From positions 1 to 24,782 of the IMG/VR virus record IMGVR_UViG_3300025704_000104: 24,782 nt of DNA; one strand, written 5' to 3'. Position numbers and translations under genes: made by a program. This stretch comes from a virus. This document shows positions 3,918-19,664 of the stretch, one piece after another; the stretch's first letter is position 1; every line of letters begins with the position of its first letter. The notes beneath the pieces are model-generated. The model made no database searches. It was given only the letters and a program-made list of their open reading frames with translations, and was not told the DNA's origin.

Positions 3918-3931
3918 TGTTTTTAAATAAA
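3918..3931 (+). promoter_or_regulatory. Late-unit element copy 1 (TGTTTTTAAATAAA)
   Basis: First of six exact copies of a 14-base element that each precede a structural gene unit. Here 15 bases separate it from the ATG of the small terminase gene. Most likely a phage-specific promoter core (the TAAATA part recalls the T4 late promoter TATAAATA), alternatively a leader element acting on the RNA. Confidence 0.7.
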
Positions 3932-3946
3932 CCAACATAAATCAAC

Positions 3947-4252
3947 ATGGCAGGCAAGAGCAAAGCAAACGGAGCACAGGGATCAGATAATTGGGGAGGT
4001 CCAAGACCAAACAGTGGGCGTCCTTCAAATGGGGAGCTTATAAACATAAGACAGATCCTAGACGACAATATTGACATTGACGTAGTAATACAGAAGCTAC
4101 TAGAACGCATTGAGTCAGGAGACCAAAGAGCTATTGAGTTGTTCCTAAAGTATAGAGCAGGACTACCTAAGCAGGAGATTGATCTTAACACTTCAGGATC
4201 AGTAGATCACAATATTACTCTAAGAGGCTTAATCTCTTTTGAGGATGAGTAA
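3947..4252 (+). CDS. terS: Terminase small subunit
   Basis: 101 residues, small and basic at the N-terminus, with the WGGPRPNSGRP segment (16-26) typical of many small terminases and immediately upstream of a clear large subunit, which it overlaps by 8 bases. Small terminase forms a ring that recognises the packaging site on the concatemeric genome and regulates the large subunit. The middle (IRQILDDNIDIDVVIQKLLE, IELFLKYRAGLPKQEID) is helical, fitting oligomerisation. It is the first gene after late-unit element copy 1. The call depends on the RPNSGRP pattern plus context. Confidence 0.85.
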   Translation: MAGKSKANGAQGSDNWGGPRPNSGRPSNGELINIRQILDDNIDIDVVIQKLLERIESGDQRAIELFLKYRAGLPKQEIDLNTSGSVDHNITLRGLISFEDE

Positions 4253-5462
4253 CGGCATAACTTTAAACCCTAAGTATAGGCCTTTGTTTCTTAGTAATTC
4301 GCGTTACTATATGATTACAGGGGGACGTGGCTCTAGTAAGTCCTATAGTATATCTACAATGATATTGCTACTCACTTATGAGAAGGGACACAATATCCTA
4401 TTTACACGCTATACAATGACCTCAGCATCTACTTCTATTATACCTGAGATGAATGAGAAGATTGAGATCATGGGTTTACATAATGACTTCATTATAAACA
4501 AGACAGACATAACTAATAAGCTTACAGGTAACAAGATATACTTTAGAGGTCTAAAGGTAGGACAGGGTACACAGACAGCTGCACTTAAGTCTTTGAATGG
4601 TATAAGCACATGGATACTCGATGAGGCAGAAGAAATGCCTGATCCTTTACTATTTGATAAGATTGATCTATCAGTAAGATCTAAGGAGGCACAGAACCGT
4701 GTTATAATGGTAATGAACCCCACTACCAAAGCGCATTGGATATATGATAGGTTTTTCCAACGTAGAGGCTTACAGGGTGGTGAGAATACCACAGAAGGCG
4801 ACACTACCTATATACATACAACCTACTTAGATAATGAGAAGCACTTAGATAAAACATTCTTGGCTAACTTAGACAGGATGAAAAGAGAGCGCCCTGATGA
4901 CTACAAAGCGCAAATCCTTGGAGGGTGGCGTGATGTGGCCCATGGTGTTATTTTTACTAATTGGGAGGTTAAAAGATTTGATCCTAATGGTGATCACTAT
5001 GGTATAGGCTTAGATTTTGGCTTCTCGAATGATGCAACCGCAGGTACATTAGTATCTATAAACGTTAAACGTAAAGAGATCTATCTTAAAGAGATTATAT
5101 ACGCTACAGGGCTAACTACTTCAGATATTGCTCAGAAGCTCTTAAAGTACCCTAATACGCTTACTATAGGGGACAGTGCTGAACCTCGGCTATTGCATGA
5201 GCTTAAGTCTAACTATGGCCTTAACATAAAGCCTAGTATTAAAGGACAGGGATCTATTAACTTGGGTATCGCTCTTATGCAGGATTACAAGCTATTTGTA
5301 GATCAGGGATCTAATAACCTTATTACAGAGCTAAACAATTACGTTTGGAAGGATGGCAAAGAGGTTGCAATTGACGATTTTAACCATTTATTGGATGGGA
5401 TCAGGTATTTTATATCATATAACCTCAGCAATCCTAATGCAGGTAAATACTTCATTAACTAA
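4245..5462 (+). CDS. terL: Terminase large subunit (ATPase/nuclease)
   Basis: 405 residues from the ATG at 4245; an in-frame TTG at 4239 is a poorer start. Packaging motor that translocates DNA into the prohead through the portal and cuts it. ATPase domain: Walker A GGRGSSKS (26-33), Walker B WILDEAEEM with catalytic acids at 126-130, and coupling motif region VMNPTTKAHW. Nuclease domain (RNase H-like): GLDFGFSNDATAGT, GDSAEPR and DDFNHLLDGIRY supply the three acidic metal ligands. Length is normal for the compact PBSX/Terminase_3-like group. The overlap with terS indicates coupled translation. Firm call. Confidence 0.96.
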   Translation: MSNGITLNPKYRPLFLSNSRYYMITGGRGSSKSYSISTMILLLTYEKGHNILFTRYTMTSASTSIIPEMNEKIEIMGLHNDFIINKTDITNKLTGNKIYFRGLKVGQGTQTAALKSLNGISTWILDEAEEMPDPLLFDKIDLSVRSKEAQNRVIMVMNPTTKAHWIYDRFFQRRGLQGGENTTEGDTTYIHTTYLDNEKHLDKTFLANLDRMKRERPDDYKAQILGGWRDVAHGVIFTNWEVKRFDPNGDHYGIGLDFGFSNDATAGTLVSINVKRKEIYLKEIIYATGLTTSDIAQKLLKYPNTLTIGDSAEPRLLHELKSNYGLNIKPSIKGQGSINLGIALMQDYKLFVDQGSNNLITELNNYVWKDGKEVAIDDFNHLLDGIRYFISYNLSNPNAGKYFIN

Positions 5463-5525
5463 TCAGCTACACCTCAGCTACTTACATTTTATTTTCATTT
5501 TATTTTAAAAAAAGTTGCATAATTG

Positions 5526-5558
5526 TTTGGTAGGTACATTTAATTAGTTGTATCTTTA
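5526..5558 (+). promoter_or_regulatory. Host-type promoter for the small-ORF island
   Basis: TATCTTTA (5551-5558) matches the Bacteroidota -7 box except at the last base, and TTTG at 5526-5529 sits 21 bases upstream, a reasonable -33 element. It is in the 126-base gap after terL and 30 bases before the first small ORF. It lacks the CTCAGGTTTAACTAA box of two other promoters. The gap also holds a direct repeat (TCAGCTAC twice, 5464-5481) and a T-rich stretch, but no convincing terminator hairpin. Confidence 0.6.
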
Positions 5559-5588
5559 CAAAAAACAAATCAACTAAATATAAAAACT

Positions 5589-5735
5589 ATGTTACAAGAA
5601 ATCAACAAAGGAATAGAGAGAGCGTTAGAGACTATTAACTATGAGTTATCTTTAGGAGACTTTGCAGACCTAGAGAGGGTAGCAAAGTATAAGAAGTATA
5701 TAGCAGATATGAACGAACTTAAAACAACAATATAA
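5589..5735 (+). CDS. Small helical protein, 48 aa
   Basis: Unrecognised. MLQEINKGIERALETINYEL and DLERVAKYKKYIADMNELK look like two amphipathic helices, a hairpin-like small protein. First gene after the promoter at 5551, and its stop overlaps the next ATG (TAATG). Accepted on position, coupling and composition. Confidence 0.55.
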   Translation: MLQEINKGIERALETINYELSLGDFADLERVAKYKKYIADMNELKTTI

Positions 5736-5866
5736 TGGACACTAAAACAGAATTACTACTAGACTATCAAGAAATGGCTATATTAGCCCTTAGAGAAGAG
5801 GTTAACAGACTGACCTTAGAGAATCAATTACTAACCCTTAAATTAAAAGCAAATGAATATATATAA
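5735..5866 (+). CDS. Leucine-zipper-like miniprotein, 43 aa
   Basis: Unrecognised. Most of the chain is one predicted helix rich in Leu and Glu (LLLDYQEMAILALREEVNRL, then TLENQLLTLKLKANEY) with Leu spacing compatible with a dimeric coiled coil. Starts in a TAATG overlap and overlaps the next small ORF by 14 bases. Might be a dimerising regulator or adaptor; no DNA-binding region is visible. Confidence 0.5.
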   Translation: MDTKTELLLDYQEMAILALREEVNRLTLENQLLTLKLKANEYI

Positions 5867-5987
5867 CAGATTACTCGTAAAGCTATCTATAAGGCCGTAT
5901 AAGGTCGTAGAACTAGATACACAACTATTGGTAAAGCATTACCGCAATGGTCGCATAGGGGTCACTAGAATAAGTCAAAAGCAATGA
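5853..5987 (+). CDS. Basic small hypothetical protein, 44 aa
   Basis: Unrecognised. Basic, with NRLLVKLSIRPYKVVEL and a C-terminal KHYRNGRIGVTRISQKQ. Overlaps both neighbours (14 bases with the previous ORF, ATGA with the next), so if translated it is tightly coupled. The YRNGRI segment loosely recalls YRYGRI in the 42-residue protein at 2325, which may hint at a shared small family. Confidence 0.42.
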   Translation: MNIYNRLLVKLSIRPYKVVELDTQLLVKHYRNGRIGVTRISQKQ

Positions 5988-6229
5988 AAGGCTTAAAAGC
6001 CATGAGTTGGGCCTTAAAAGGAAACCATCTGAGGGTATATGCTGAACCTATTAAACAGTATTATACACATAAGACAGGAAAGACTACAAGGAATCTAGCT
6101 TATGTTAGATTGGTCCTGGAGATCGGTAACGCTAAGCATGTAGGTACTGAGGTATATAAGCAGCATGAGCACTCAGAGAAGGTAGAGGAGATCTATCTAC
6201 ATTACTATAATAAACGCACACAGAAATGA
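5984..6229 (+). CDS. Basic hypothetical protein, 81 aa
   Basis: Unrecognised. Mixed strand/helix composition with alternating hydrophobics (LRVYAEPIKQYYTHKTG, LAYVRLVLEIGNAKHVGTEV) and a charged C-terminus (HEHSEKVEEIYLHYYNKR). A second Met at residue 7 is an alternative start. Starts in an ATGA overlap with the preceding ORF and ends in another ATGA overlap. The beta-rich middle could be a small nucleic-acid binding or single-strand-binding-like fold, but no motif proves this. Confidence 0.6.
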   Translation: MKGLKAMSWALKGNHLRVYAEPIKQYYTHKTGKTTRNLAYVRLVLEIGNAKHVGTEVYKQHEHSEKVEEIYLHYYNKRTQK

Positions 6230-6339
6230 GAACAACTAAACAGATAATACAGAAACTACAACAGATTGCAGATAAGCTGCCATGCAGTAAAAGACGTAAA
6301 GCAATTAACAAAAGAATTTTAAACCTTAAAACTAAATAA
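6226..6339 (+). CDS. Lys/Arg-rich miniprotein, 37 aa
   Basis: Unrecognised. Begins MRTTKQIIQKLQQIADKLP and continues CSKRRKAINKRILNLKTK, two basic helices around a CSKRRK turn. Strongly cationic, so nucleic-acid contact is plausible. Coupled to the upstream gene by ATGA; one base separates its stop from the next ATG. Confidence 0.45.
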   Translation: MRTTKQIIQKLQQIADKLPCSKRRKAINKRILNLKTK

Positions 6340-6340
6340 C

Positions 6341-6478
6341 ATGAAAGACTTACAGATTATAATTAAGCCCGCAATTACTAAAGATTATTTTACCCTTCAT
6401 ATAGATGAAAAATTAATAGGTCAATTTGAAAGATCACAGCTTAGACATATAATAGAGAAAATAGACAACGCTATATAA
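6341..6478 (+). CDS. Small hypothetical protein, 45 aa
   Basis: Unrecognised. Begins MKDLQIIIKPAITKDYFTLH, continues IDEKLIGQFERSQLRHIIEK and ends IDNAI: two short strands followed by a helix, a compact beta-beta-alpha-like pattern. Lies one base after the previous stop and two bases before the next gene. Function unknown. Confidence 0.5.
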   Translation: MKDLQIIIKPAITKDYFTLHIDEKLIGQFERSQLRHIIEKIDNAI

Positions 6479-6480
6479 AC

Positions 6481-6843
6481 ATGAAGGAATGTACAAAATG
6501 CAATGCAATAAAAGACAAAGGTTTATTTAACAAAGATAAAACTAGAAAAGACGGGCTGTCTTATGTATGTAAAGAATGCATAAATACTCAGTCTAAGACA
6601 TATAGAGCCAAGTCTAAAGATAAAATAAAGGCTTATATTGAGTCTCAGAGAAACGATTTTTATACATTATACTATCTGCCTGAGGATCACTATATAGGAA
6701 TAACGACACAACCCAGTATAAGAATGAGGAACCATAAAAGCCAAGGCAGACACATACTAGGATATGAGGTGGTAGCTGCTTTTAAAACTAAAAGAGAGGC
6801 TTTAGCTACTGAAAGATACTTACATAATATAGGATATAATTAA
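6481..6843 (+). CDS. Zinc-finger plus GIY-YIG nuclease-like protein
   Basis: 120 residues. N-terminal CxxC...CxxC (C4, C7, C30, C33) with KDGLSYVCKECIN between resembles the zinc finger of many phage HNH/GIY-YIG endonucleases. Residues about 60-120 fit a short GIY-YIG domain: FYTLYYL (GIY-like strand), HYIGIT (YIG-like), Arg81/Arg83 in PSIRMRNH, and a late ALATERYLHNIGY with Glu111 as candidate metal ligand. Such modules cut DNA as homing endonucleases, or act in repair or host degradation. The length is short and no extra specificity region is visible, so it may be a free-standing homing-type gene that entered the island. Start: ATG two bases after the preceding stop. Confidence 0.72.
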   Translation: MKECTKCNAIKDKGLFNKDKTRKDGLSYVCKECINTQSKTYRAKSKDKIKAYIESQRNDFYTLYYLPEDHYIGITTQPSIRMRNHKSQGRHILGYEVVAAFKTKREALATERYLHNIGYN

Positions 6844-6844
6844 T

Positions 6845-7015
6845 ATGACAGATAAAGACTTAAATAAATGTACTACTATGGAATTGGAGCATATACTGCT
6901 TAACTTTACCTGGTTTCCTAACAAACACCTCAGCAGGTGCAAAAGAATACTAGATCAGAGACATCGTAAAAGACTGATAAAGAAGCAGATGCAAAATAAT
7001 TCAAAAAAAGATTAA
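6845..7015 (+). CDS. Basic hypothetical protein, 56 aa
   Basis: Unrecognised. LNKCTTMELEHILLNFTWFP then a strongly basic tail (NKHLSRCKRILDQRHRKRLI, KKQMQNNSKKD). Starts one base after the GIY-YIG gene stop and is the last gene before the promoter at 7021. The cationic tail could bind nucleic acid. Accepted on context only. Confidence 0.5.
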   Translation: MTDKDLNKCTTMELEHILLNFTWFPNKHLSRCKRILDQRHRKRLIKKQMQNNSKKD

Positions 7016-7020
7016 AAAAG

Positions 7021-7053
7021 CTCAGGTTTAACTAAATAACCATTGTATCTTTG
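7021..7053 (+). promoter_or_regulatory. Host-type promoter with 15-base box, second copy
   Basis: CTCAGGTTTAACTAA (7021-7035), then 10 bases, then TATCTTTG (7046-7053): identical box, spacing and -7 element to 1290-1322, while the 10-base spacers differ. AAATAATTCAA also precedes both copies at slightly different distances. It drives the 70- and 63-residue ORFs that end at the terminator at 7547. Confidence 0.75.
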
Positions 7054-7089
7054 AAGTGTAAATAATAACAAACACTAAAAATAAACATT

Positions 7090-7302
7090 ATGACTTTAAA
7101 AGAAATCTACAAAGCAAACAACGAAACTCTAAAAATGCTTATATCACTTGTAACAAAGTGGAACGATAAAAACTACGACCTAACAGACTTAGAATGGGAT
7201 ACTATAAAGTCTTATAAAAGCCTATTGGATTTATACTTCAATGACACTGATTTAATACAGAAGACAATCGAAGCAAACGAGAAGACAATTTTATCACTAT
7301 AA
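7090..7302 (+). CDS. Hypothetical protein, 70 aa
   Basis: Unrecognised. Probably all-helical: LKEIYKANNETLKMLISLVT, DLTDLEWDTIKSYKSLLDLY, NDTDLIQKTIEANEK. ATG lies 37 bases after the -7 box with an A-rich leader and no Shine-Dalgarno sequence. Its promoter duplicates that of the gene at 1338, so both are probably expressed early and possibly under common control. A GC hairpin follows 8 bases after the stop. Confidence 0.65.
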   Translation: MTLKEIYKANNETLKMLISLVTKWNDKNYDLTDLEWDTIKSYKSLLDLYFNDTDLIQKTIEANEKTILSL

Positions 7303-7310
7303 TAACTAAC

Positions 7311-7326
7311 GGGGGTTAACACCCCC
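7311..7326 (+). other. GC-rich hairpin between two small ORFs
   Basis: GGGGGT-TAAC-ACCCCC is a perfect 6-pair hairpin with a 4-base loop in otherwise AT-rich DNA. Only three T residues follow, then A residues, so it is a weak or partial terminator, an attenuator or an mRNA-stabilising element. It sits 8 bases after one stop and 21 bases before the next ATG. Confidence 0.55.
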
Positions 7327-7347
7327 TTTAAAACTAAACCACTACTA

Positions 7348-7539
7348 ATGAACACACTAGATGAATTACACGAGAATAGAGAGGTCGAAGCTGTGAGGCG
7401 TAAAAACTATGAGCTAGGATACTTTCATGCCATGAGAGATCTTGAAAACTATATAGATAGCAAGGAGATGTTAAATGATACTGATCTGCTAGATGACGTT
7501 TACAACCTGATTGTATCAAATGAGGTATTAAGAGACTAA
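7348..7539 (+). CDS. Acidic hypothetical protein, 63 aa
   Basis: Unrecognised. Helical and acidic: MNTLDELHENREVEAVRRKN, YELGYFHAMRDLENYIDSKE, LNDTDLLDDVYNLIVSNEVL. The YELGYFHAMRDLE portion resembles generic phage helical hairpins. Last gene of the island, followed directly by a strong terminator. Confidence 0.6.
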   Translation: MNTLDELHENREVEAVRRKNYELGYFHAMRDLENYIDSKEMLNDTDLLDDVYNLIVSNEVLRD

Positions 7540-7546
7540 GAAAATA

Positions 7547-7578
7547 AAACCTGCATTAAGTTGTGGGTTTCGTTTTTT
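7547..7578 (+). terminator. Intrinsic terminator closing the small-ORF island
   Basis: Nine-pair stem (arms 7547-7555 and 7562-7570, two G-T pairs) with a TTAAGT loop, then CG and six T residues (7573-7578). It follows the 63-residue ORF by 7 bases and separates the island from the tail genes, which begin after late-unit element copy 2. Confidence 0.8.
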
Positions 7579-7579
7579 A

Positions 7580-7667
7580 TGCCCTATTTTACCGTTGACT
7601 TTAGGGCACCGTGACAAATATACTAATTAATATATATACACTCCAAATTTTTTTTTTATTTTTTTTG
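7580..7667. repeat. Inverted repeat plus long T tracts in the 171-base gap
   Basis: TGCCCTA (7580-7586) and TAGGGCA (7602-7608) form a 7-base inverted repeat with a 15-base loop, immediately after the terminator. Farther on, an AT-only stretch (about 7619-7640) and two T tracts (ten T at 7648-7657, eight at 7659-7666) precede late-unit element copy 2. No ORF of note is present. The T tracts may be bent or easily melted DNA, or an UP-like element for the downstream start. Confidence 0.45.
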
Positions 7668-7690
7668 AGGCTACTTATTTACTAGTGACC

Positions 7691-7704
7691 TGTTTTTAAA
7701 TAAA
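7691..7704 (+). promoter_or_regulatory. Late-unit element copy 2 (TGTTTTTAAATAAA)
   Basis: Exact copy, six bases (GATCAA) before the ATG at 7711. It restarts expression 113 bases after a strong terminator, which supports a promoter role. If the element works like a T4-type late -10 box, the transcript would begin at or next to the ATG. Confidence 0.72.
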
Positions 7705-7710
7705 GATCAA

Positions 7711-8358
7711 ATGAAGATACAAGTCCCTACAGAAATTAACGACATTACACTAGAGCAATACCAAAGATTTGCTTTGATCAATACAGAGGATCAGGAGAAG
7801 GAATTTTTTATGTTTAAGACCATTGAGATATTCTGTGGTGTAGATATTAAGATAGTATCTAAGATGAGGTTTTCTGAGGTTCAAGCCATTTCAGATGAGA
7901 TCTTAGAGATCCTAAATACACAAATACCCTTCAATACTAAGTTCACTATGGACGGCATTGAGTACGGGTTCATTCCTGATCTTCAGGCCATGTCTTTAGG
8001 TGAGTTCATAGATCTCGAGCAAGGGCTAAGTAACCCTAAGGAGTTTCACAAGGCTGCAGCTGTTATGTATAGACCTGTATTAAAGAGTTTTGGTGATCTT
8101 TACACTATTAACGGCTATGAGGCAAGCATGGAATCACATGAGCTAATGAAGCAGGCGCCTATAGGGGTAATTAGTGCAGCTATTGTTTTTTTTTACAGTA
8201 TCGTGAACGAGTTACTAAAGGATTCACAGGACTATTTGAAGACACAGGAGGGGACGATAATGACTATAGCAGACAGTCTCAATTCGCCTCGAAATACGGA
8301 TGGTTCAACTCTATCTACGCTCTTTGCGGAGGAGTGGCTACAAAGTATACAGAAGTAA
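7711..8358 (+). CDS. Tail assembly chaperone (zero-frame product)
   Basis: 215 residues. Looks like the Bacteroidota phage protein family with EITLEQYQ-type start, IEYGFIPDLQAMSLGEFIDL (near 90-110), MYRPV (about 120) and a helix FFYSIVNELLKDSQDYL. I call it a tail assembly chaperone (lambda gpG role: coats the tape measure before tube assembly) because its 3' part overlaps a -1 frame that encodes a protein-like extension after slippery runs, the hallmark of the G/GT arrangement, and because tail completion genes follow. The tape measure gene is 5 kb farther on, not adjacent as usual. The last about 40 zero-frame residues look less conserved in character than the alternative frame. Confidence 0.6.
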   Translation: MKIQVPTEINDITLEQYQRFALINTEDQEKEFFMFKTIEIFCGVDIKIVSKMRFSEVQAISDEILEILNTQIPFNTKFTMDGIEYGFIPDLQAMSLGEFIDLEQGLSNPKEFHKAAAVMYRPVLKSFGDLYTINGYEASMESHELMKQAPIGVISAAIVFFYSIVNELLKDSQDYLKTQEGTIMTIADSLNSPRNTDGSTLSTLFAEEWLQSIQK

Positions 8359-8447
8359 CAGAAATGAATCACCTTGAAGCTTTAATGTTTTTAGAATATG
8401 ATAAGGAGAAGGCAGAAATTGAAAGGGCACAATATAGAAAAAAATAA
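8175..8447 (+). CDS. -1 frame extension of tail chaperone (GT-like, by frameshifting)
   Basis: Open -1 frame relative to the gene at 7711, running from just after a stop at 8172 to TAA at 8445. It has no ATG until 8364, yet the residues before that are highly protein-like: QFASKYGWFNSIYALCGGVA, TKYTEVTEM, HLEALMFLEYDKEKAEIERA. The aromatic KYGWFNSIYAL segment is the sort found in the long form of such chaperones. Expression would need a -1 slip, at T9 (8186-8194, tandem TTT TTT) giving about 245 residues, or at GGGG (8250-8253). It ends 3 bases before the next ATG. An uncorrected homopolymer error in T9 is the competing explanation. Confidence 0.65.
   Translation, partial: CSYCFFLQYRERVTKGFTGLFEDTGGDDNDYSRQSQFASKYGWFNSIYALCGGVATKYTEVTEMNHLEALMFLEYDKEKAEIERAQYRKK
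8186..8194 (+). promoter_or_regulatory. Candidate -1 slippery site (T9)
   Basis: In the zero frame the codons are GTT TTT TTT TAC, so T-TTT-TTT (8187-8193) satisfies the X-XXY-YYZ rule and allows both tRNAs to re-pair one base back. The slip would enter the -1 frame at TTA (8193). A second candidate is the GGG codon in GGGG (8250-8253), next to an AGGAGGGG stretch; a slip there would retain more of the zero-frame helix. Confidence 0.5.
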
Positions 8448-8450
8448 GAT

Positions 8451-8909
8451 ATGAATAACATTTTTAAAGTCACAGATGCTATAAGGTCTGAGTTGCAAAA
8501 TAATAAACTAATCAATCAGGTCACATTCGGTGATCTCTTTGAGGTTGACTTACTTAAAAAGAATATTTTTCCTTTAGCACATGTAGGAATGTCTACAGCT
8601 AGGATAGGAGAAGGCGTAGCCTATGTAGATATGTCAGTGTTATTCTTGGATATTGTAGACGAACAAAAGCAGGCCCAAACAGATCAGTTTTACGGAAATG
8701 ATAATGAGCACTATGTGCTAAATTCTATGTTTGCTGCAGCTACTAAGACAATACAGGAGCTAATGAGAGGCGACCTATATGCTCAAGGCTTTCAGGTAGA
8801 GGATGAATCTGTAAGTATCGAGTTCTTTAGTGAGAGATTTGAAGATAAGCTGGCAGGATGTGGAATGGAGTTTACAGTGATCATTAAAAACACTTTGGAC
8901 CTGTGCTAA
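8451..8909 (+). CDS. Probable tail terminator/completion protein
   Basis: 152 residues. Pattern: short N-terminal helix (IFKVTDAIRSELQNN), then NQVTFGDLFEVDLLKKNIFP and LAHVGM, a long strand pair (GVAYVDMSVLFLDIVD), a helix (NSMFAAATKTIQELMRG) and a final strand region (MEFTVIIKNTL). This alternating layout and the position between chaperone and gp10-like connector fit the ring-forming tail terminator family, which caps the finished tail tube. I recognise the ...GDLFEVDLLKK.FPLAH... style from flavobacterial phages, but have no direct homology evidence. Starts three bases after the -1 frame stop. Confidence 0.5.
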   Translation: MNNIFKVTDAIRSELQNNKLINQVTFGDLFEVDLLKKNIFPLAHVGMSTARIGEGVAYVDMSVLFLDIVDEQKQAQTDQFYGNDNEHYVLNSMFAAATKTIQELMRGDLYAQGFQVEDESVSIEFFSERFEDKLAGCGMEFTVIIKNTLDLC

Positions 8910-8911
8910 AA

Positions 8912-9502
8912 ATGACCTCAACATATCCTAAGGCAAGGCGTGTAATGGATGGCTATAAACGCTATGTAATAGCTCAGTCTAAGGCTAATCTAACTAGGGG
9001 CCGCACGAGTAGAGGCAAGAAATCTTCACACAAAGTAAGTGGTAAGCTATATAAGTCTCTTAAGGGGTTTGTTAGCTCCAAAATGAATAGAGATATTAAA
9101 GGTAAGTTTACAGGTGGATCTGCAATGCCTAGTGTCACATTTGAAATGGCTCACTATGGTAAGTTCTTAGATGAGGGTGTGAGAGGTTCTAAAAGTAACT
9201 ATATAGTCAACGCTAAAAGTCCTAATAAGTTCAGGAATGGTAAGAAGACTGTGCCTGTTGGTCCTATCAGGAAGTGGCTTAAAAAGAAGGGTCTATCTCA
9301 GGGCTTAGCTTTTGTTATAGCTAGATCAATCTATGAGAAGGGTATTAAAAAGACAGGTTTCTTTGAGAAGCCTTTTAATAAAAGATATAAGGTAACAATG
9401 CGAGCGTATCACAATGCCATAGCAGATGACATACAGAAAAACTTTGCAAATCAAATAACAAACAGACTAGCTAGGTCTAGAATGGTTAAAATACTAAAAT
9501 AA
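8912..9502 (+). CDS. HK97 gp10-like head-tail connector/neck protein
   Basis: 196 residues from the ATG at 8912; a GTG at 8903 overlapping the previous stop is a weaker start. Very basic. The centre matches the HK97 gp10-like pattern: FEMAHYGKFLDEGVRGSKSN (about 85-105), then VPVGPIRKWLKKKGLSQGLA and FVIARSIYEKGIKKTGFFEK. These proteins join the head completion ring to the tail. The N-terminus (RGRTSRGKKSSHKVSGKLYK) is unusually Lys/Arg-rich. Two bases separate it from the previous stop, and seven from the next gene. Confidence 0.72.
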   Translation: MTSTYPKARRVMDGYKRYVIAQSKANLTRGRTSRGKKSSHKVSGKLYKSLKGFVSSKMNRDIKGKFTGGSAMPSVTFEMAHYGKFLDEGVRGSKSNYIVNAKSPNKFRNGKKTVPVGPIRKWLKKKGLSQGLAFVIARSIYEKGIKKTGFFEKPFNKRYKVTMRAYHNAIADDIQKNFANQITNRLARSRMVKILK

Positions 9503-9509
9503 CAATACA

Positions 9510-13134: not shown

Positions 13135-13148
13135 TGTTTTTAAATAAA
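13135..13148 (+). promoter_or_regulatory. Late-unit element copy 3 (TGTTTTTAAATAAA)
   Basis: Exact copy at the end of a 119-base gap, only four bases (GACT) before the ATG of a 48-residue ORF. A transcript initiated just downstream would have essentially no leader. The gap also contains TTTAACATA twice (13095-13103 and 13106-13114), possibly a binding site. Confidence 0.7.
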
Positions 13149-13152
13149 GACT

Positions 13153-13299
13153 ATGATAGATATAATCCTAAAACTACTAAGGACCACAGAACAAGACAGC
13201 TATCCCGTCAATGTGGCTAAAGGACTATATAAGTATCCTGAGACATGGAGCGAGCTTAAAAGATACATGAAATTTAGATATAATAATACATACAGATAA
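13153..13299 (+). CDS. Small protein ahead of tape measure, 48 aa
   Basis: Unrecognised. Begins MIDIILKLLRTTEQDSYPVN, continues VAKGLYKYPETWSELKRYMK and ends FRYNNTYR; helical with a basic, aromatic C-terminus. It is the first gene after late-unit element copy 3 and overlaps the tape measure start (TAATG), so it is probably made together with it. Its place is where tail chaperones usually lie, so a small tape-measure partner is a reasonable guess, unproven. Confidence 0.6.
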   Translation: MIDIILKLLRTTEQDSYPVNVAKGLYKYPETWSELKRYMKFRYNNTYR

Positions 13300-16232
13300 T
13301 GGCTAAAGAAACTAGAAGAGTTCATGTGTCGGTTACATCAAATGCAGCAACTAGCTTAAACGCAGGGACAGCCGCAGCGGGTGGACTATCGACTTCATTG
13401 AAAGGAGTGGCGGCCTCAGCTACAGCGGCAACAGGAGGCATCAAGTCTATGACTATGGCACTTATATCGAGCGGTGTTGGGGTTTTAGTAGTAGGATTAG
13501 GTGCTTTAGTAGCAGGCTTAGGAGCGGCACTTAGTAAGTCAACTCAATTTGAGAAGGCTCTATCTACATTAGAGGCCGTAACAGGATCTAGTAAGGCAGA
13601 AATGGGTGAGCTTAGTAATCAGGCTAAGCAATTAGGAGCCACAACAGCATTTACCGCTAGTGAGGTATTATCACTGCAAACTGAGCTAGCAAAGTTAGGT
13701 TTCAAGACTGATGATATTAAAAATTCAACAGGTGCAATATTAGATCTAGCAGCATCTTTAGAAGTTGATCTAGGAGAAGCAGCTGAGTTTTCAGGATCAT
13801 TAATCAAATCATTTGGTTTATCAACAAAAGAGACTCAAAGGGTTGTAGACGTAATGGCCAAGAGTACATCTAGCTCAGCACTGTCATTTAGCTCATTAAG
13901 AGAATCATTGAAGTTAGTCGCTCCTGTATCAAAAGCTACAAACGTATCTGTAGAGAAAACGACGGCTTTACTAGGGGTTTTAGCAGATAGGGGACTAAAG
14001 GGATCTATAGCAGGAACGGGACTAGCTAAGACCTTTATAATGCTTAACAAGAAGGGTATATCATTGGCAGATGGTATGAAAAAAGTGAGAGAATCGGCAG
14101 ATCCACTTAATACCGCTATTGATATGGTAGGTGTTGTAGCAGGTAAAACATTCCTTACTCTAGCAAGTGGACAGGATGACATTGCAGGCTTAGAGAAGAA
14201 ATTTCTAGATGCTGAAGGAGCCGCTAAGAAAATGGCAGAGGTAAAACTAGACAATTTAGCAGGTGATACCACTAAGTTATCTAGTGCATGGGAAGGATTT
14301 CTACTATCTATAGAAGACGGTGAGGGAATGCTCAATAAAATAGCTAGAGGCTTTATACAGGCCACTACAGCAATATTAAGCTTTATAACACCCACAACAC
14401 TATTAAGTGAAGAGCTAGATAAGGAGCGCTTTGCATTGTTTGCTTTAGAGGGGCAACTACTAGACACAAATACATCTGAGGGTGATCGTGTTGAGATCAT
14501 AGAAAAACTACAAAAGGAATATCCTGACTTTTTAAAAAATATTGACGCTGAGAAGGCCACTAACGAGCAATTAAGTGCTGCTATTGGAGAAGTTAACGAG
14601 ATGTTAATTAATAAGATCATACTTCAGGAGGCTGACGAAGAGATACAAGAGGCATTAAATGACGCAGCAAAGGATAAGAAGACCTTGCTTGAGAATGAAA
14701 TGCAACTAAGGAATGCTATAGCTCAGAACGCTAAACAGCACAATCTAGAACAAACTGAGGGCACATTACAGGAGCGAGCTGCAGCACAGCAACAGCAAAT
14801 ACATCTTAAGCGTACTGAGATGTCATTCAATGATCTAGAAATAGCTAACAGAAGGCTTAGAAATGGCCTTAAAGGCACTGAAAGAGCACAAGACAGCTAT
14901 AACAAATCTATGGAGATTACAAGCTCTCTAACATCAGCTAAAAACGGCCTGATGGAGGATCTAGGAATGACTATAGCCGAAAATACTGAGTTAACAGATG
15001 AGAATACACTTGCCGATGGTGAAGCTACAAAGAAACTAGGTAGTCTTATAGCAGCTCAAAAAGCATTGCTAGCCGTTGGTAAAGCTATGCCTGAAACTAC
15101 AGAGGCTGAGATCAGAGCTAAGAATAAGTTTATTGAGAGTATAGAAAATGAGATCAAAAGACTTAATGAGCTAGGAGTTGCTAAAAAGGGAGGAGTAGAT
15201 AAGGAACTTAATGCTAAGAATGCGTTTCTTAAAAAACTGTTAAAATTAGAACAAGATCAGCAAGCTAAAACTAAACTAGAGGCTATTGAAGTTAAAAGAA
15301 AACAATACTTAGCTGAGTTAGAACTGCATAAAATGAGTGACGATGAGAAGGGTAAAGCCACTCTAGCTATAAATGCTATATATAATCAAAAGGTAATAGA
15401 TCAGGAGCTATTAAATAAAGAAGCTAAAAAGAAAATATTTGACGACTTCGATGCTAAATTTAAGATAAAGTCAGACGATCCACTTCAGAACTTAGCACAG
15501 CAAAAAGAGGCACATTTACTAGAGCTAGAACAACTGAAAGTATCGACTACTGAGAAGGAGATGTTAAAAGCAAGTATTGTAGAGTACTATGCTGACCTAA
15601 GCTTTAAAGCAGATCAGGACAGAATGATCAAAAAACAAGAGGAGGATGCACGTATTTTAGAGCTTAAAAAACAAACTTTAGCTGATGGCTTAGATGCTGT
15701 TATAATGGCCTCAGGTGAGGAGTCAAAGATAGGTCAGTTAATGCTTAAAATGAAGCAGGCTATGATGCTAGCTGAGATCGTTATGAAAATGAAGGCTCTA
15801 GCTATGACAATGAAGGCAAAAGCGACAGAGTCTAACATGGAAATGGCTGCAGATGGAATAAAACAACAAGGATCTTTGCAGGTGGGTATGGCTAACGCTA
15901 GTAAACTCGGACCTCCATGGAATGCTATCACTATGGCTACGTATGCAATTCAAGCGGGTATGATGATCAAAAACATGGCAAAGCAAAAGAAGGATATGAA
16001 AAAACTCACTTCTAGATTTGGGGGCCAAGACTTTGGAGGATCAGGAGGTGGTGCGGCCATTCAAGCCCCCGCTTTTAATGTTATAGGGCAGACTAGCAAT
16101 GACGCTAACTTTTTAGGCAGTACAATATCAGGAGCTAACAATAGACCCATGAGAGCCTATGTAGTAGCTGAAGACGTTACGAGCACTCAAGCATTACAGC
16201 GCAACACAGAAACCGAAGCAAGTCTCGGATAA
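13299..16232 (+). CDS. Tail tape measure protein
   Basis: 977 residues. Determines tail length and is ejected into the host envelope during infection. N-terminal region (1-400) matches the phage TP901-type tape measure: hydrophobic GVGVLVVGLGALVAGLGAAL (about 59-78), FEKALSTLEAVTGSS, ATTAFTASEVLSLQTELAKL, then DRGLKGSIAGTGLAKTFIML. The middle is long coiled coil (Gln/Glu/Lys-rich, about 400-800), followed by a Met/Ala-rich amphipathic segment (MLKMKQAMMLAEIVMKMKAL) and a Gly/Ala-rich end (FGGQDFGGSGGGAAIQAP). At about 0.15 nm per residue the tail would be near 150 nm, an estimate from the general ruler relation. No lytic transglycosylase or peptidase motif is obvious. Confidence 0.93.
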   Translation: MAKETRRVHVSVTSNAATSLNAGTAAAGGLSTSLKGVAASATAATGGIKSMTMALISSGVGVLVVGLGALVAGLGAALSKSTQFEKALSTLEAVTGSSKAEMGELSNQAKQLGATTAFTASEVLSLQTELAKLGFKTDDIKNSTGAILDLAASLEVDLGEAAEFSGSLIKSFGLSTKETQRVVDVMAKSTSSSALSFSSLRESLKLVAPVSKATNVSVEKTTALLGVLADRGLKGSIAGTGLAKTFIMLNKKGISLADGMKKVRESADPLNTAIDMVGVVAGKTFLTLASGQDDIAGLEKKFLDAEGAAKKMAEVKLDNLAGDTTKLSSAWEGFLLSIEDGEGMLNKIARGFIQATTAILSFITPTTLLSEELDKERFALFALEGQLLDTNTSEGDRVEIIEKLQKEYPDFLKNIDAEKATNEQLSAAIGEVNEMLINKIILQEADEEIQEALNDAAKDKKTLLENEMQLRNAIAQNAKQHNLEQTEGTLQERAAAQQQQIHLKRTEMSFNDLEIANRRLRNGLKGTERAQDSYNKSMEITSSLTSAKNGLMEDLGMTIAENTELTDENTLADGEATKKLGSLIAAQKALLAVGKAMPETTEAEIRAKNKFIESIENEIKRLNELGVAKKGGVDKELNAKNAFLKKLLKLEQDQQAKTKLEAIEVKRKQYLAELELHKMSDDEKGKATLAINAIYNQKVIDQELLNKEAKKKIFDDFDAKFKIKSDDPLQNLAQQKEAHLLELEQLKVSTTEKEMLKASIVEYYADLSFKADQDRMIKKQEEDARILELKKQTLADGLDAVIMASGEESKIGQLMLKMKQAMMLAEIVMKMKALAMTMKAKATESNMEMAADGIKQQGSLQVGMANASKLGPPWNAITMATYAIQAGMMIKNMAKQKKDMKKLTSRFGGQDFGGSGGGAAIQAPAFNVIGQTSNDANFLGSTISGANNRPMRAYVVAEDVTSTQALQRNTETEASLG

Positions 16233-16235
16233 AAT

Positions 16236-16249
16236 TGTTTTTAAATAAA
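16236..16249 (+). promoter_or_regulatory. Late-unit element copy 4 (TGTTTTTAAATAAA)
   Basis: Exact copy beginning three bases after the tape measure stop codon and ending eight bases before the ATG of the protease gene. The whole intergenic space is 25 bases, so the element was kept even where there is no room for other signals. Confidence 0.7.
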
Positions 16250-16257
16250 GATATAAT

Positions 16258-16860
16258 ATGAAAATTTACGAAATGCTTTTAGGCGAAGATGACCAGCTAG
16301 GTGTAAGCGCTGTTAGTTTGGTTAATACGCCAGCAATTATGAGTGACTGGGTAGCCCTAGGTGATCAGAAACCTATTTTACTAGCTGAAGTATCAAAAGA
16401 TAAACAAGTACTCTTAGGAGCGGCCCTAATACCTGATAAACCAATTTTTCGCAAAGGTGAGAATGGAGCTGAAGACTTTTACATATATTTTTCTAAGGAG
16501 ACGATAGCTAAGACAGCACAGAATTTCTTTAAAAATAATAATCAAAACAATGCTACTCTAGAGCACGACGTTAAACTAGCTGGGATGACCATTTTTGAGT
16601 CCTGGATAGTAGAAGACTCTAAGCTAGACAAGAGCGCTAAATACGGCTTAAATCTACCTGAGGGGACTTGGGCAATTAGCATGAAAGTAGATGACCAGGA
16701 TGTATGGGACAACTACGTAAAAAACGATAAGGTTTTTGGCTTCAGTATAGAAGGACAATTTTCTAACGCTCTAAGACGTGAAAGTGATATGAATTTTAGC
16801 GATGAGGTCCTAGATAAAACTCTAGATATGATACGCCAAATAGTAAAAGAAAATATATAA
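16258..16860 (+). CDS. XkdF-like prohead serine protease
   Basis: 200 residues. Matches the XkdF-type phage protease family: LLGAALIPDKPIFRKGENGA, then EDFYIYFSKETIAKTAQNFF, TLEHDVKLAG with His103, ESWIVEDS, GTWAISMKVDD and KVFGFSIEGQF with Ser163. In the related herpesvirus-assemblin fold His and Ser form the catalytic pair, and the enzyme trims scaffold and capsid protein during head maturation. Full family length with an intact His/Ser pair. It is encoded after the tape measure and about 1.3 kb before the scaffold-like and capsid genes, with two unknown genes between, rather than next to the portal. Confidence 0.82.
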   Translation: MKIYEMLLGEDDQLGVSAVSLVNTPAIMSDWVALGDQKPILLAEVSKDKQVLLGAALIPDKPIFRKGENGAEDFYIYFSKETIAKTAQNFFKNNNQNNATLEHDVKLAGMTIFESWIVEDSKLDKSAKYGLNLPEGTWAISMKVDDQDVWDNYVKNDKVFGFSIEGQFSNALRRESDMNFSDEVLDKTLDMIRQIVKENI

Positions 16861-16884
16861 ATAATAGATATAAATAATAGATAT

Positions 16885-17376: not shown

Positions 17377-17528
17377 TGTACATAAAAGCAAAATATCCAA
17401 AAGTAGGTAATGAGTACGGAGGTCCAAATGCAAAGCCTCAAGGTTTCGGTAGTTTATACGGTGGCAATCAAATTAGTGACATAACCAAAATAGATAGAGA
17501 AGATACAATATCCAACACAAGTGGTTAA
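17376..17528 (+). CDS. Gly-rich small protein, 50 aa
   Basis: Unrecognised. Begins MYIKAKYPKVGNEYGGPNAK, continues PQGFGSLYGGNQISDITKID and ends REDTISNTSG; low in hydrophobics, probably disordered or binding as an extended arm. Starts in a TAATG overlap with the beta-rich protein, so the two are likely partners. Last gene before late-unit element copy 5; an AACAG/CTGTT inverted repeat lies in the gap near 17558-17571, without a T run. Confidence 0.5.
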   Translation: MYIKAKYPKVGNEYGGPNAKPQGFGSLYGGNQISDITKIDREDTISNTSG

Positions 17529-17575
17529 AAAACTAAAATCATTAGTGCTACAAAAAAACAGATTTCTGTTAATAG

Positions 17576-17589
17576 TGTTTTTAAATAAA
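17576..17589 (+). promoter_or_regulatory. Late-unit element copy 5 (TGTTTTTAAATAAA)
   Basis: Exact copy 22 bases before the ATG of the scaffold-like gene, the longest spacing of the six. It heads the unit containing scaffold, major capsid and tail tube genes, presumably the most heavily expressed products. Confidence 0.72.
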
Positions 17590-17611
17590 ATACAAACCCT
17601 TAAATTAATTT

Positions 17612-18061
17612 ATGTTAAACGCAAAAGACACCCTAAAAAAGATTGCTGAAGCTTTAAATATAGCGACAGAAACACCTGCAGATGAAGCTGTAGCACCAAC
17701 ACCTGAAGCTGCGGCAGAGCCTGTAGCACCAACACCTGATCCTGTAGTGGCTGAGGTAGTAGCACCTGCAGCTGAGCCTGTAGCAGAGCCTGTAGCGGAA
17801 ACGCCTGCAGCTGAAGTAGTATCTGAGGAGCCCGTAGAGGACCTGCGAGTAAAAGCACTAGAGCAACAACTAGCGGACCTAAAAGGAATCTTAGCAGATG
17901 CTATGAAAGTAGAAGATCCTATACCCGAAATACCACAAGCAGCACCACAAGGATTGACACATAGCCCTGAGGCTGTAGTCAGGTCTGAGTCAGCGAGTGG
18001 CATCGGTAAAAAAGGAGCTTCTATTCAAGAGAGAGTTTTCAAATATATCAATAATAATTAA
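17612..18061 (+). CDS. Probable scaffolding protein, Ala/Pro/Glu-rich
   Basis: 149 residues. Residues about 18-75 are a low-complexity acidic tract with near repeats (VAPTPEAAAEPVAPTPDPVV; the DNA repeats an 18-mer at 17689-17706 and 17722-17739), followed by a coiled coil (LRVKALEQQLADLKGILADA) and a basic tail (GIGKKGASIQERVFKYINNN). Acidic low-complexity plus helix plus basic C-terminus, immediately upstream of the major capsid gene, fits a scaffolding protein whose C-terminus docks on the capsid and which is cleaved by the XkdF-like protease. Sixteen bases separate it from the capsid gene. Function inferred from position and composition. Confidence 0.68.
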   Translation: MLNAKDTLKKIAEALNIATETPADEAVAPTPEAAAEPVAPTPDPVVAEVVAPAAEPVAEPVAETPAAEVVSEEPVEDLRVKALEQQLADLKGILADAMKVEDPIPEIPQAAPQGLTHSPEAVVRSESASGIGKKGASIQERVFKYINNN

Positions 18062-18077
18062 TTTTAAATTTTAAACA

Positions 18078-18977
18078 ATGCCAACAACAACTAGTATTAC
18101 GACCTCTTACGCAGGGGCTAAAGCACAAGGATTTATAGCCGCGGCTTTATTATCAGCGCCTACTTTAGATAAAGGAGGAATCACAGTAAAACCAAACATT
18201 AAGTATAAGCAGGTAATGCAGAAGCTTGCAGTAGGAGACATAGTAGCTGACGCTTCATGTGACTTCGCAGCAACATCTTCAGTTACATTAACTGAGCGTT
18301 ACTTACAAGTAAAAGATTTTCAAGTAAATTTGGAACTTTGTAAAAAAGATTTTGAGTCGGACTGGCTTTCAATTGAGCAAGGATTTTCATCTTTTGACGA
18401 ATTACCAAAAAGCTTCGCAGCATACCTTATAGGTCATGTAGCAGGTAAAGTAGCTGCTAACGTAGAGACTAACATTTGGAACGGAACAGGAGCGGGTAAA
18501 TTTGACGGATTAGTTAACCTTATGGCAGCTGATGCTGATGTAGTAGATGTAGCCTTCACAGGTGCAACGACTGCAGCTAACATCATTGAGCGCCTTGGAG
18601 ACGTAGTAGACGCTATTCCTGAGACTATTTATGGTTCTGAAGGACTAAGTATCTATATCTCACAAGCAGACGCTAGATCTTATGTAAGAGCTCAGGCAGC
18701 TTTAGGATACAAAGATCTTTACCATGTAGGTCAAACTGCAATGGATTTTGAAGGTGTTAAATTATTTGTAGCAAATGGATTAAATTCAGGGCAAATGGTT
18801 GCAGGAATGAAGGACAATATGTTTTTCGGCTGCGGGCTTCAAAATGACCAAAATCTTGTAAAATTGATTGACCTCGCAGATATCGACGGATCACAAAATG
18901 TGAGAGTTGTAATGCGTTATTCTGCAGCGGTACAATATGCTATCGGTTCAGAAATCGTTTTAACAACACAGTCTTAA
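18078..18977 (+). CDS. Major capsid protein
   Basis: 299 residues, compatible with the HK97 fold: an N-terminal arm region, KQVMQKLAVGDIVADASCDF, strand/helix segments with LQVKDFQVNLELCKKDFESD, the long spine-like helix ELPKSFAAYLIGHVAGKVAA, NIWNGTGAGKFDGLVNLM, a VYISQ-type strand (SIYISQADARSYVRAQAALG), a glycine-rich VANGLNSGQMVAGMKDNMFF loop and a closing RVVMRYSAAVQYAIGSEIVL. Codons here are visibly more regular (many GCA/GGA/GTA) than neighbours, as expected for a highly expressed gene. Leader is AT-rich (TTTTAAAT occurs before the ATG) without Shine-Dalgarno. Located after scaffold and followed by a hairpin. Fold call from pattern and context. Confidence 0.85.
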   Translation: MPTTTSITTSYAGAKAQGFIAAALLSAPTLDKGGITVKPNIKYKQVMQKLAVGDIVADASCDFAATSSVTLTERYLQVKDFQVNLELCKKDFESDWLSIEQGFSSFDELPKSFAAYLIGHVAGKVAANVETNIWNGTGAGKFDGLVNLMAADADVVDVAFTGATTAANIIERLGDVVDAIPETIYGSEGLSIYISQADARSYVRAQAALGYKDLYHVGQTAMDFEGVKLFVANGLNSGQMVAGMKDNMFFGCGLQNDQNLVKLIDLADIDGSQNVRVVMRYSAAVQYAIGSEIVLTTQS

Positions 18978-18995
18978 TAACAGACTAATTATCTA

Positions 18996-19021
18996 AAGGG
19001 CTCCTTTAATTAGGGGCTCTT
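18996..19021 (+). terminator. Hairpin after capsid gene (partial terminator or RNA processing/stability element)
   Basis: Ten-pair stem (18996-19005 with 19012-19021, two G-T pairs) and TTAATT loop, 18 bases after the capsid stop. No T run follows, so full termination is unlikely; it may protect the capsid mRNA 3' end or lower expression of the tail tube gene relative to capsid. Confidence 0.5.
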
Positions 19022-19059
19022 AACTAAATCAATATCAACAACTTAAATACTATAACATT

Positions 19060-19575
19060 ATGCCATGTAATATCACACTAGGGCGTTTGGAAGGCTGTAA
19101 AGACAGTGTGGGGGGTTTGAACGCCATCTACTTTGTAAACTTTGGAGCAATGGGAGACCTAACTATTTCTGATGAAACGGTTACAGGAATCTCAGCAACA
19201 ACACCTGACGCTTTTAAATACGATCTAAGAGGTACATCTACCTTTGATCAATCACTAACCTCAAGCCGCGATAACGGTACTACTTTTGCTGAGCAAACGC
19301 TAGTCGTTTCTTTAAAGAAGCAAGACGCTACGACTCACAAAGAAGTAAAATTATTAGCTTACGGACGTCCACAAATTTTAATTGAAGATAACAACGGGAC
19401 TGTTTGGTTAATGGGAGAAGAATTTGGAGCTGAAATGAGCGCAACCGCTACAAGTGGGGCTTCATTAGGTGACAAATCAGGATATGAGCTCACGTTTGCA
19501 GGAATGGAGAAGGGCTTCGCTAAGCAATACACAGGAGTAATTGCTACAGATTTTTCAGTAACTTTAGGAGTATAA
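19060..19575 (+). CDS. Probable major tail tube protein
   Basis: 171 residues. Begins MPCNITLGRLEGCKDSVGGL and is beta-rich with one likely helix: YFVNFGAMGDLTIS, SFDQSLTSSRDNGTTFAEQT-like central strands, KEVKLLAYGRPQILIEDNNG, TVWLMGEEFGAEMSATATSG, and YELTFAGMEKGFAKQY near the end. The closing strand/helix pattern (ELTF.G.E) is what tail tube proteins of long-tailed phages show. It is in the same unit as the capsid gene and is followed by a strong terminator, fitting an abundant structural product. No late-unit element lies before it, so it depends on read-through from 17576. A capsid decoration protein is the main alternative. Confidence 0.6.
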   Translation: MPCNITLGRLEGCKDSVGGLNAIYFVNFGAMGDLTISDETVTGISATTPDAFKYDLRGTSTFDQSLTSSRDNGTTFAEQTLVVSLKKQDATTHKEVKLLAYGRPQILIEDNNGTVWLMGEEFGAEMSATATSGASLGDKSGYELTFAGMEKGFAKQYTGVIATDFSVTLGV

Positions 19576-19598
19576 TCCAACAAAATGAAAACTAGAAT

Positions 19599-19629
19599 AA
19601 CAGCTGCCTTAGGGTGGCTGTTTTTTTTT
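19599..19629 (+). terminator. Intrinsic terminator closing the capsid/tail tube unit
   Basis: Ten-pair stem (19599-19608 with 19613-19622, two G-T pairs), TTAG loop and nine T residues (19621-19629). It lies 23 bases after the tail tube stop. Late-unit element copy 6 begins 21 bases beyond the T run, so transcription must restart for the portal unit. Confidence 0.9.
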
Positions 19630-19650
19630 GTATCATATTGGCTAGTATAT

Positions 19651-19664
19651 TGTTTTTAAATAAA
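19651..19664 (+). promoter_or_regulatory. Late-unit element copy 6 (TGTTTTTAAATAAA)
   Basis: Exact copy located immediately downstream of a strong terminator and eight bases before the ATG at 19673. Because the terminator should end upstream transcripts and no TAnnTTTG box is visible in the short gap, this is the best single argument that the element is a promoter. Confidence 0.75.

Follow-up and report, generated by a model that had tools for sequence, protein, structure and literature searches.

A probable phage late promoter and a candidate phage-encoded sigma factor

The late promoters of phage T4 carry the sequence TATAAATA and are served by the phage proteins gp55, gp33 and gp45; in this type of system the sigma factor has no functional region 4 and a sliding clamp acts as co-activator. 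Here we examine an element of 14 nucleotides (nt), TGTTTTTAAATAAA, that recurs in a 24,782-nt stretch of viral DNA (IMG/VR record IMGVR_UViG_3300025704_000104, positions 1 to 24,782; the whole stretch is called the window below), and that we regard with good confidence as a putative late promoter read by a phage-encoded sigma factor of the extracytoplasmic function (ECF) type. Late promoters dedicated to a phage sigma factor have been described before, and the present case belongs to a less studied host group. The closest described counterparts are those of phages phiEco32 and 7-11. The relevant parts of PMC8948821 present gp36 of phiEco32 and gp47 of Salmonella phage 7-11 as small phage sigma factors of the sigma-70 superfamily with late promoters; phiEco32 has a single element, tAATGTAtA, 7-11 has GTAAtg-16-aCTA, and relatives with diverged sigma factors use different promoters.

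Our best reading is that the late promoter system of the window phage works like these two rather than like that of T4. As far as both are set out in those parts of the paper, the likeness lies in early genes served by the host primary sigma factor and in late genes served by several similar promoters at corresponding genome positions. In the window phage and its relatives, a sigma-70 family protein is predicted that has regions 2 and 4, like 7-11 gp47; near-identical elements precede the late units and are absent from the early ones; and boxes of the host primary-sigma type, recognized by consensus match only, are present in the early intergenic gaps. Unlike phiEco32 and 7-11, these are flavobacterial siphophages, and their element, TGTTTTTAAATAAAG, is invariant over 14-15 nt and usually lies 3-28 nt from the ATG.

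For flavobacterial cellular promoters, the relevant passages of PMC9723704 distinguish a sigmaA class (TAnnTTTG, the -7 box of the primary sigma factor), an SM5 class (TAnnTTGY) and an SM6 ECF class with a CGT box. The early gaps of the phages carry the sigmaA box, and a CGTT element in the cultured phage P12024S, described below, resembles the ECF CGT box; the window motif fully matches none of the three classes. Our literature search, whose scope did not include the P12024 genome announcement, found no description of the TGTTTTTAAATAAA element. The unannotated repeat becomes a testable early-to-late switch in a marine Bacteroidota phage family known mainly from metagenomes, whose hosts differ in transcription from the usual models.

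Putative late promoter elements in the window

An exact search of the window found TGTTTTTAAATAAA on the plus strand at 3918, 7691, 13135, 16236, 17576 and 19651, the six positions given in the original prediction; no exact copy was found on the minus strand, nor with the motif reversed but not complemented as a control. The G+C content of the window is 37.3%, in keeping with the AT content of about 63% that had been assumed, and 2000 simulated sequences from a second-order Markov model held on average 0.0005 exact copies, both strands counted (maximum 1), which bears out the earlier estimate of far fewer than one. When up to two mismatches were allowed there were nine matches against 1.11 expected (standard deviation 1.08), a count reached by none of 100 shuffles; the three inexact matches are all on the minus strand. 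The element is the commonest 14-mer of the window and, its own shifted versions aside, the next 14-mers have two copies each. A chance repeat was rejected on the expected number of exact copies and on the shuffles, which never reached the observed count. A mobile repeat was rejected as well: only the short core is common to the sites, and the flanks differ.

From the end of the motif to the ATG of the gene that follows, the six copies have gaps of 15, 6, 4, 8, 22 and 8 nt in order, the range of 4-22 bases originally noted. Copy 1 (3918..3931) precedes a gene in the small terminase position (3947-4252) and the TerL gene (4239-5462; PHROG 2, E 1.7e-51). Copy 2 (7691..7704) stands before a module at 7711-13033 that is assigned to the tail by position. 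Copy 3 (13135..13148) had been attributed to the tape measure gene, which does lie downstream (13299-16232; PHROG 1533, E 2e-48), but the copy directly heads an open reading frame (ORF) of 48 amino acids (aa) that begins 4 nt away and precedes the tape measure gene (13153-13299; PHROG 32183, E 7.5e-7); the initial ORF listing took ORFs of at least 50 aa and did not contain it. Copy 4 (16236..16249) precedes a head-protease-like gene (16258-16860; PHROG 34096, head maturation protease, E 1.5e-8). Copy 5 (17576..17589) precedes a gene in the scaffold position (17612-18061), for which no family match was found, and a capsid-like gene (18078-18977; PHROG 1623, virion structural protein, E 3.7e-7), and copy 6 (19651..19664) is followed by a gene at 19673-20053 and by a portal gene (20053-21294) homologous to the P12024 portal gene.

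A longer contig, IMGVR_UViG_3300009496_000035 (32,698 bases), is from the same phage: it is identical to the window over 9,117 and 15,459 bases and 99.98% identical over 14,702. To the left of the window this contig holds a seventh copy, at -4973 in window coordinates, before a NinG-type nuclease gene.

Conservation of the element among relatives

Relatives were gathered from IMG/VR by portal and TerL searches, which gave 80 and 62 loci, most of them fragments. Exact copies of the motif were held by 74 of the 80 portal-fetched loci (181 copies) and by 20 of the 62 TerL-fetched loci (33 copies), both copy counts including overlapping loci. Thirteen longer contigs, which represent 11 distinct phages since three of the contigs are one phage, had 4-8 copies each in a single orientation per contig, and the reversed-pattern control gave none. 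In this wider search through the phage and its relatives, as had been proposed at the outset, none of the 142 fetched loci had an exact copy on the opposite strand. A scan of all viral contigs found the motif in at least 120 stretches; among 80 loci from the matches listed, only L162 and L180 had more than one copy, and both are contigs of already known relatives. Single copies were seen on both strands among the matches listed, so the signature is copy number together with orientation, not one copy alone.

Homologues of 29 phage genes were then located in the fetched loci and the sequences upstream of them inspected. Matches that did not reach the first 12 residues, or that had less than 130 nt upstream, were excluded; distinct upstream sequences were counted, near-identical ones being kept. 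For the seven genes that follow the motif, 123 of 177 upstream sequences had an exact copy and 11 more had one with 1-2 mismatches; among the 507 upstream sequences of the 22 remaining genes, which are early or internal structural ones, none had an exact copy and 12 had a near copy. By position, exact copies were found in 7 of 11 upstream sequences for copy 1 (1-2 mismatches in 2 of the 11), 11 of 37 for copy 2 (one near and 25 with neither, the 37 rows having a median identity of 31%), 4 of 7 for copy 3 (1-2 mismatches in the other 3), 13 of 18 for copy 4, 33 of 35 for copy 5 (two near), 28 of 29 for the pre-portal gene behind copy 6 (one near) and 27 of 40 for the NinG gene behind the seventh copy. 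The element is real, conserved and gene-specific. Its tie to first genes across relatives, and its absence from the early gaps described below, agree with the phage-specific late promoter originally proposed, whose activity as a promoter we infer.

Structure of the element

The anatomy of the element was derived from the 133 sites that remained after removal of duplicates at 80% flank identity. In 82% of them the 14-mer is directly followed by G, and TGTTTTTAAATAAA(G) would form the core of the late promoter, from the -10 region through the start region. Just upstream of the 14-mer, A is found at -4 in 80% of sites and at -2 in 72%, and nearly all sites (98%) have A or T at -5. A weaker block extends from -21 to -13, with a purine at -21 in 84%, C at -17 in 51% and A in 56% at each of -16, -15 and -14; it is clear in some units (tail, scaffold and portal) and weak in others. 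Base changes in the variants of relatives fall mainly at the 10th and 11th positions, for example TGTTTTTAAGTAAA and TGTTTTTAAAAAAA, with TGTTTTTAATAAAA in the G+C-richer L080.

The element had at first been taken to be self-contained, as T4 late promoters are. That description is not supported: the weak upstream block, together with a region 4-like (-35-binding) domain in the sigma-like protein described below, makes the layout look ECF-like and bipartite, and with the block and the conserved A residues at -4 and -2 the sites differ from a T4-type single -10 element that lacks upstream conservation. The likeness to T4 lies in an AT-rich, strong element near the start site and in a phage sigma-like factor; unlike T4, the factor of the window phage has a modelled region 4-like domain, and its sites have weak upstream conservation. 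The T4 comparison holds for function, not for layout. Transcription could start within AAATAAAG; an ECF-like reading would put the start at about position 12-14 of the element and an SM5-like reading at position 7.

The SM5-like start belongs to a different account, in which the element is a late promoter read by a host sigma factor, either an alternative factor of the SM5 kind or the primary factor with a phage activator, and the phage sigma-like protein acts elsewhere. SM5 promoters of F. psychrophilum have a TAnnTTGY box at -12 to -5 according to the SM5 passages of PMC9723704, and over that stretch the motif sites read W-A-W-A-N-T-G-T. An exact TANNTTGY box is nevertheless present in just 19 of the 133 sites, neither T at -5 nor T at -1 is conserved, and the longer invariant run TTTTTAAATAAA does not appear in those passages. 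A host factor is further argued against by P12024S, which has a different element in the same place and a different sigma-like gene, and we consider this account improbable.

Distances from motif to ATG are bimodal, 3-12 nt in 70 of the 133 sites and 21-28 nt in 33; the gap is 3 to 32 nt at most sites and longer before ninG genes, and 19 sites lack a 30-codon ORF within 70 nt. With so variable a gap a promoter fits better than a ribosome site, and a ribosome-binding or Kozak-like element was rejected on that ground. The motif might still be an element of the mRNA, a translation enhancer or the site of a translational regulator in late leaders, rather than a promoter. It is A-rich and near start codons, and the relevant parts of PMC6847099 describe Bacteroidetes as favouring A at -3 and as having no Shine-Dalgarno sites. 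Such an mRNA element is hard to reconcile with the spread of gaps, with the absence of the motif before internal and early genes, with sequence conserved upstream at -5 to -2 and -21 to -13, and with terminator candidates ahead of two copies; we give it very little credence.

A candidate sigma factor

A T4-like late promoter would need a phage sigma-like factor, as the original prediction pointed out, and none had been found in the window. This is true of the window, which was cut short of the gene; 0.9 kb to its left, at -1461..-880, the longer contig has a gene for a 193-aa sigma-like protein, after ERF and helicase genes, so that the same phage, like its relatives, does have a sigma-like gene. 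The protein matches PHROG 1740, 'RNA polymerase sigma factor', over residues 32-180 (E 3.8e-8). An AlphaFold model was built from 13 orthologues, this protein and 12 others at 53-81% identity, and has a mean predicted local distance difference test score (pLDDT) of 71. The top Foldseek matches of the model are ECF sigma factors in initiation complexes (6dv9, E 1.5e-4). On structural alignment, residues 114-183 align with region 4 of E. coli sigmaE on -35 DNA (2h27; Z 8.1, root-mean-square deviation 2.7, 69 residues), and the first 91 residues align with RpoE region 2 (5uxx; Z 8.0, root-mean-square deviation 4.2, 82 residues). Nearly all of the 50 alignment rows shown are sigma factors or helix-turn-helix (HTH) proteins, in a re-alignment of Foldseek's own matches that does not exclude families outside those matches. 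From the model, the protein is probably an ECF-like sigma factor with regions 2 and 4.

The gene is present in all nine portal- or TerL-fetched contigs that span the interval from helicase to phosphoesterase. These nine are seven distinct phages, that of the window included (L074, L075 and L077 are one phage), and eight loci fetched with the sigma-like protein itself (L288-L295) were left out of the count. Farther afield, tblastn at E 0.01 found no match to the sigma-like protein in 50,697 phage records, and no sigma relative was found by tblastn in the 196 pattern matches of the genome collection. Six TerL relatives (49-54% identity, with the phosphoesterase gene) had no exact motif, and no clear sigma orthologue was found in the sequence available on either side of TerL, at most 10 kb. 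One of the six, L120, has a remotely sigma-like ORF of 184 aa upstream of TerL (L120:6228-6779), which matches PHROG 36, 'transcriptional regulator' (E 3.4e-6), and aligns with the sigma family at an hhalign probability of 90%. No promoter element was found for the L120 sister clade; de novo ranking of k-mers for the sister clade at about 50% TerL identity gave mostly A-rich start contexts and no new element.

Candidate early promoters and a proposed order of expression

Intergenic gaps were compared in ten contigs with early regions, the boundaries being set by hand at ninG and at the terminase unit. Of the 73 early gaps 31 had a TAnnTTTG box, as did 9 of the 54 late gaps, and a TTG often stood about 20 nt ahead of the box. 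The motif was found in none of the 73 early gaps and in 21 of the 54 late gaps. The statement that no copy precedes early-type genes, made at first for the window, therefore extends to these gaps as it does to the upstream sequences of the 22 other genes (0/507). In the window itself, no TANNTTTG on the plus strand overlaps any of the six motif copies, and a primary-sigma promoter was rejected as an explanation of the motif.

Two host-type promoter candidates, both consensus matches only, lie on the plus strand of the window. At 1290..1322, CTCAGGTTTAACTAA is followed by TATCTTTG at 1315, before a non-structural gene; the candidate belongs to repeat D5, which is shared with 7000-7053. The same repeat at 7021..7053 has TATCTTTG at 7046 and precedes a small ORF at 7090. 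Counting the longer contig, the boxes of this repeat are at -3986, 1315 and 7046, before non-structural genes, and the box at -3986 lies upstream of the ERF, helicase and sigma genes. This suggests an order in which the host sigma factor is followed by the early genes, including the phage sigma gene, and these by the late units. In the early phase, host RNA polymerase carrying its primary sigma factor would read the TTG/TAnnTTTG promoters of the ERF recombinase, helicase, sigma-like and other genes. The 193-aa ECF-type sigma factor, through its regions 2 and 4, would redirect the host core polymerase to seven promoters with identical cores, one each for the terminase, tail, tape measure, protease, scaffold/capsid, portal/fibre and ninG units, and late transcription from these would run in one direction with mostly short leaders.

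In the early gaps of L059, L072, L091, L100 and L291 a longer pattern was seen, roughly AAAAAGCTTGCATATGTCATTTAT-N-TATGTTTG; these early promoter candidates have extra similarity between the -33 and -7 boxes.

The gap comparison also bears on whether the motif could be the operator of a phage DNA-binding regulator, set beside ordinary promoters. Two proteins might serve, those of L107:4951-5412 and of window positions 1553-2218, and both genes lie in the early region; the former is HTH-like, with weak matches to HTH models below the cut-off, and the latter matches Bac_DnaA_C at 34.4 bits against a cut-off of 31.5. Ordinary promoters, however, are not apparent in most late gaps, only the 9 of 54 having a host-type TAnnTTTG, and the motif is non-palindromic and has one orientation relative to genes, so that we think an operator most unlikely. 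The 1553-2218 protein has an HTH like that of DnaA domain IV, with no AAA+ domain in the Pfam result, and from its sequence is possibly an origin-binding or replication-control protein.

A putative late promoter element in the cultured relatives

The nearest cultured relatives found are the Nonlabens (Persicivirga) phages P12024S and P12024L (Inhavirus), with 52% identity in TerL and 34% in the portal protein. Neither has an exact copy of the window motif, the nearest matches being one-mismatch sequences on the minus strand. P12024S has its own repeated element ahead of late units: a TTTCCGTTAATA-type 12-mer (0-2 mismatches) starts 16 nt before the ATG of gp01, gp05, gp08, gp41, gp44 and gp45. 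A test made with no motif chosen in advance found two 5-mers that recur at one offset from the ATG, CGTTA (-12) and AAAAC (-34), in six of the 45 genes each, where the best same-offset 5-mer in 150 simulated sets had a mean of 2.9 and a maximum of 4. Both boxes (AAAAC-N17-CGTTA) are present in five P12024S genes; in gp41 the AAAAC that accompanies CGTTA lies one base closer, and the remaining one of the six AAAAC boxes belongs to a different gene, at 11277. The -34/-12 spacing is the usual -35/-10 spacing if transcription starts at the A of the ATG, so the late messages of P12024 are predicted to be leaderless. From the C of an upstream CAAA to TGTT or CGTT there are 17 nt in the family of the window phage, where the consensus is weak, and mostly 18 nt in P12024S; judged by sequence, the two have a common layout with different -10 sequences. 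P12024S also has its own sigma-70 region 2 protein, gp33, at 25.2 bits against a Pfam cut-off of 24.

A broader picture can be put forward tentatively. The flavobacterial siphophage family may have a late regulon under one sigma factor, with a promoter core that runs unbroken from -10 past the start to near the start codon. For P12024, the sister genus, the same architecture may have slid until +1 is the A of the ATG and the sigma-driven late mRNAs are leaderless, and each lineage would then have a private sigma factor, a private promoter and a distinct translation start. It is likely that sigma factor and promoter have changed together between sister phage lineages here, and the candidate pair, with a second pair in a cultured phage, could be of use for orthogonal expression in flavobacteria.

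Observations against the proposed reading

A number of observations weigh against the reading of the element as a late promoter served by the phage sigma-like protein. The Pfam Sigma70_r2 match is weak (E 0.0016, 18.6 bits against a curated cut-off of 24), the model is matched by 11 of 13 family members but weakly (best E 6.4e-4), and a sequence-profile search of the PDB with the protein found no sigma factor. Just two Foldseek matches reach E 0.001, whole-chain TM-scores are about 0.3, and a Z of about 8 is middling for a helical protein. What pairs the sigma gene with the motif is their co-occurrence alone, and L295 has the sigma gene (60%) without an exact motif; one-mismatch variants are found there just before ninG and at the contig end where the terminase unit should begin. 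Exact copies are lacking in 54 of the 177 first-gene upstream sequences, 43 of them without even a near copy, many of the misses being remote homologues (such as the tail gene, at its median identity of 31%). They are lacking too in 6 of the 80 portal-fetched loci (L016, L058, L060, L080, L081 and L087) and in 42 of the 62 TerL-fetched loci, mostly the clade at about 50% TerL identity. Across the whole window TAnnTTTG by itself is only slightly commoner than in simulations (15 on the plus and 14 on the minus strand against about 10 simulated per strand), so single matches to it mean little. The similarity between gp33 of P12024S and the sigma-like protein of the window phage is slight (BLASTP E 0.041, hhalign probability 26%), and the sigma-family parallel between the two is therefore drawn from their common match to PHROG 1740.

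Terminators, leaders and other features

Intrinsic terminator candidates stand upstream of two of the six window copies, as expected if transcription restarts there. Both are on the plus strand. One, at 19599..19629, has a hairpin of -13.2 kcal/mol followed by a T run and ends about 20 nt upstream of copy 6 (19651); the other, at 7547..7578, has a hairpin of -9.1 kcal/mol followed by a T run and ends about 110 nt upstream of copy 2 (7691).

Twenty copies at the ninG position were inspected, and the majority of them stand before a NinG-type gene that has a hairpin leader, for example at L107:813-899, L010:6809-6891, L012:4702-4768, L023:11619-11682 and L034:15375-15442. In late transcription, the mRNA of this nuclease would begin with the motif, followed by a leader of about 60-100 nt with a conserved hairpin and a UUUUAGUAGGGUUUU-like loop. 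Among 13 sequences, two-sided changes that keep pairing are seen in at least one sequence at 5 of the 7 consensus pairs, with a covariation term of only -0.25, and no Rfam match at gathering score was found in the four sources searched. The hairpin is a possible regulatory RNA element. A small late-transcribed RNA had been considered for the copies without a nearby ORF and was rejected, a hairpin leader before ninG fitting better.

The window ends, at 24275-24782, inside a gene with repeated units coding for GNVGIGTTSP (repeat D16), and at the opposite end of the longer contig, within the first 300 bases of L288, there is a sequence that resembles this repeat. The assembly may have been broken at the repeat; no exact 25-base overlap was found between the window end and the other end of the longer contig. 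Between the terminase genes and the 7711 module, the stretch 5500-7600 has an endonuclease VII/HNH-like gene (6481-6843) as well as the host-type promoter repeat at 7021-7053, and may be an accessory island that lies within the late region but is under control of the early type.

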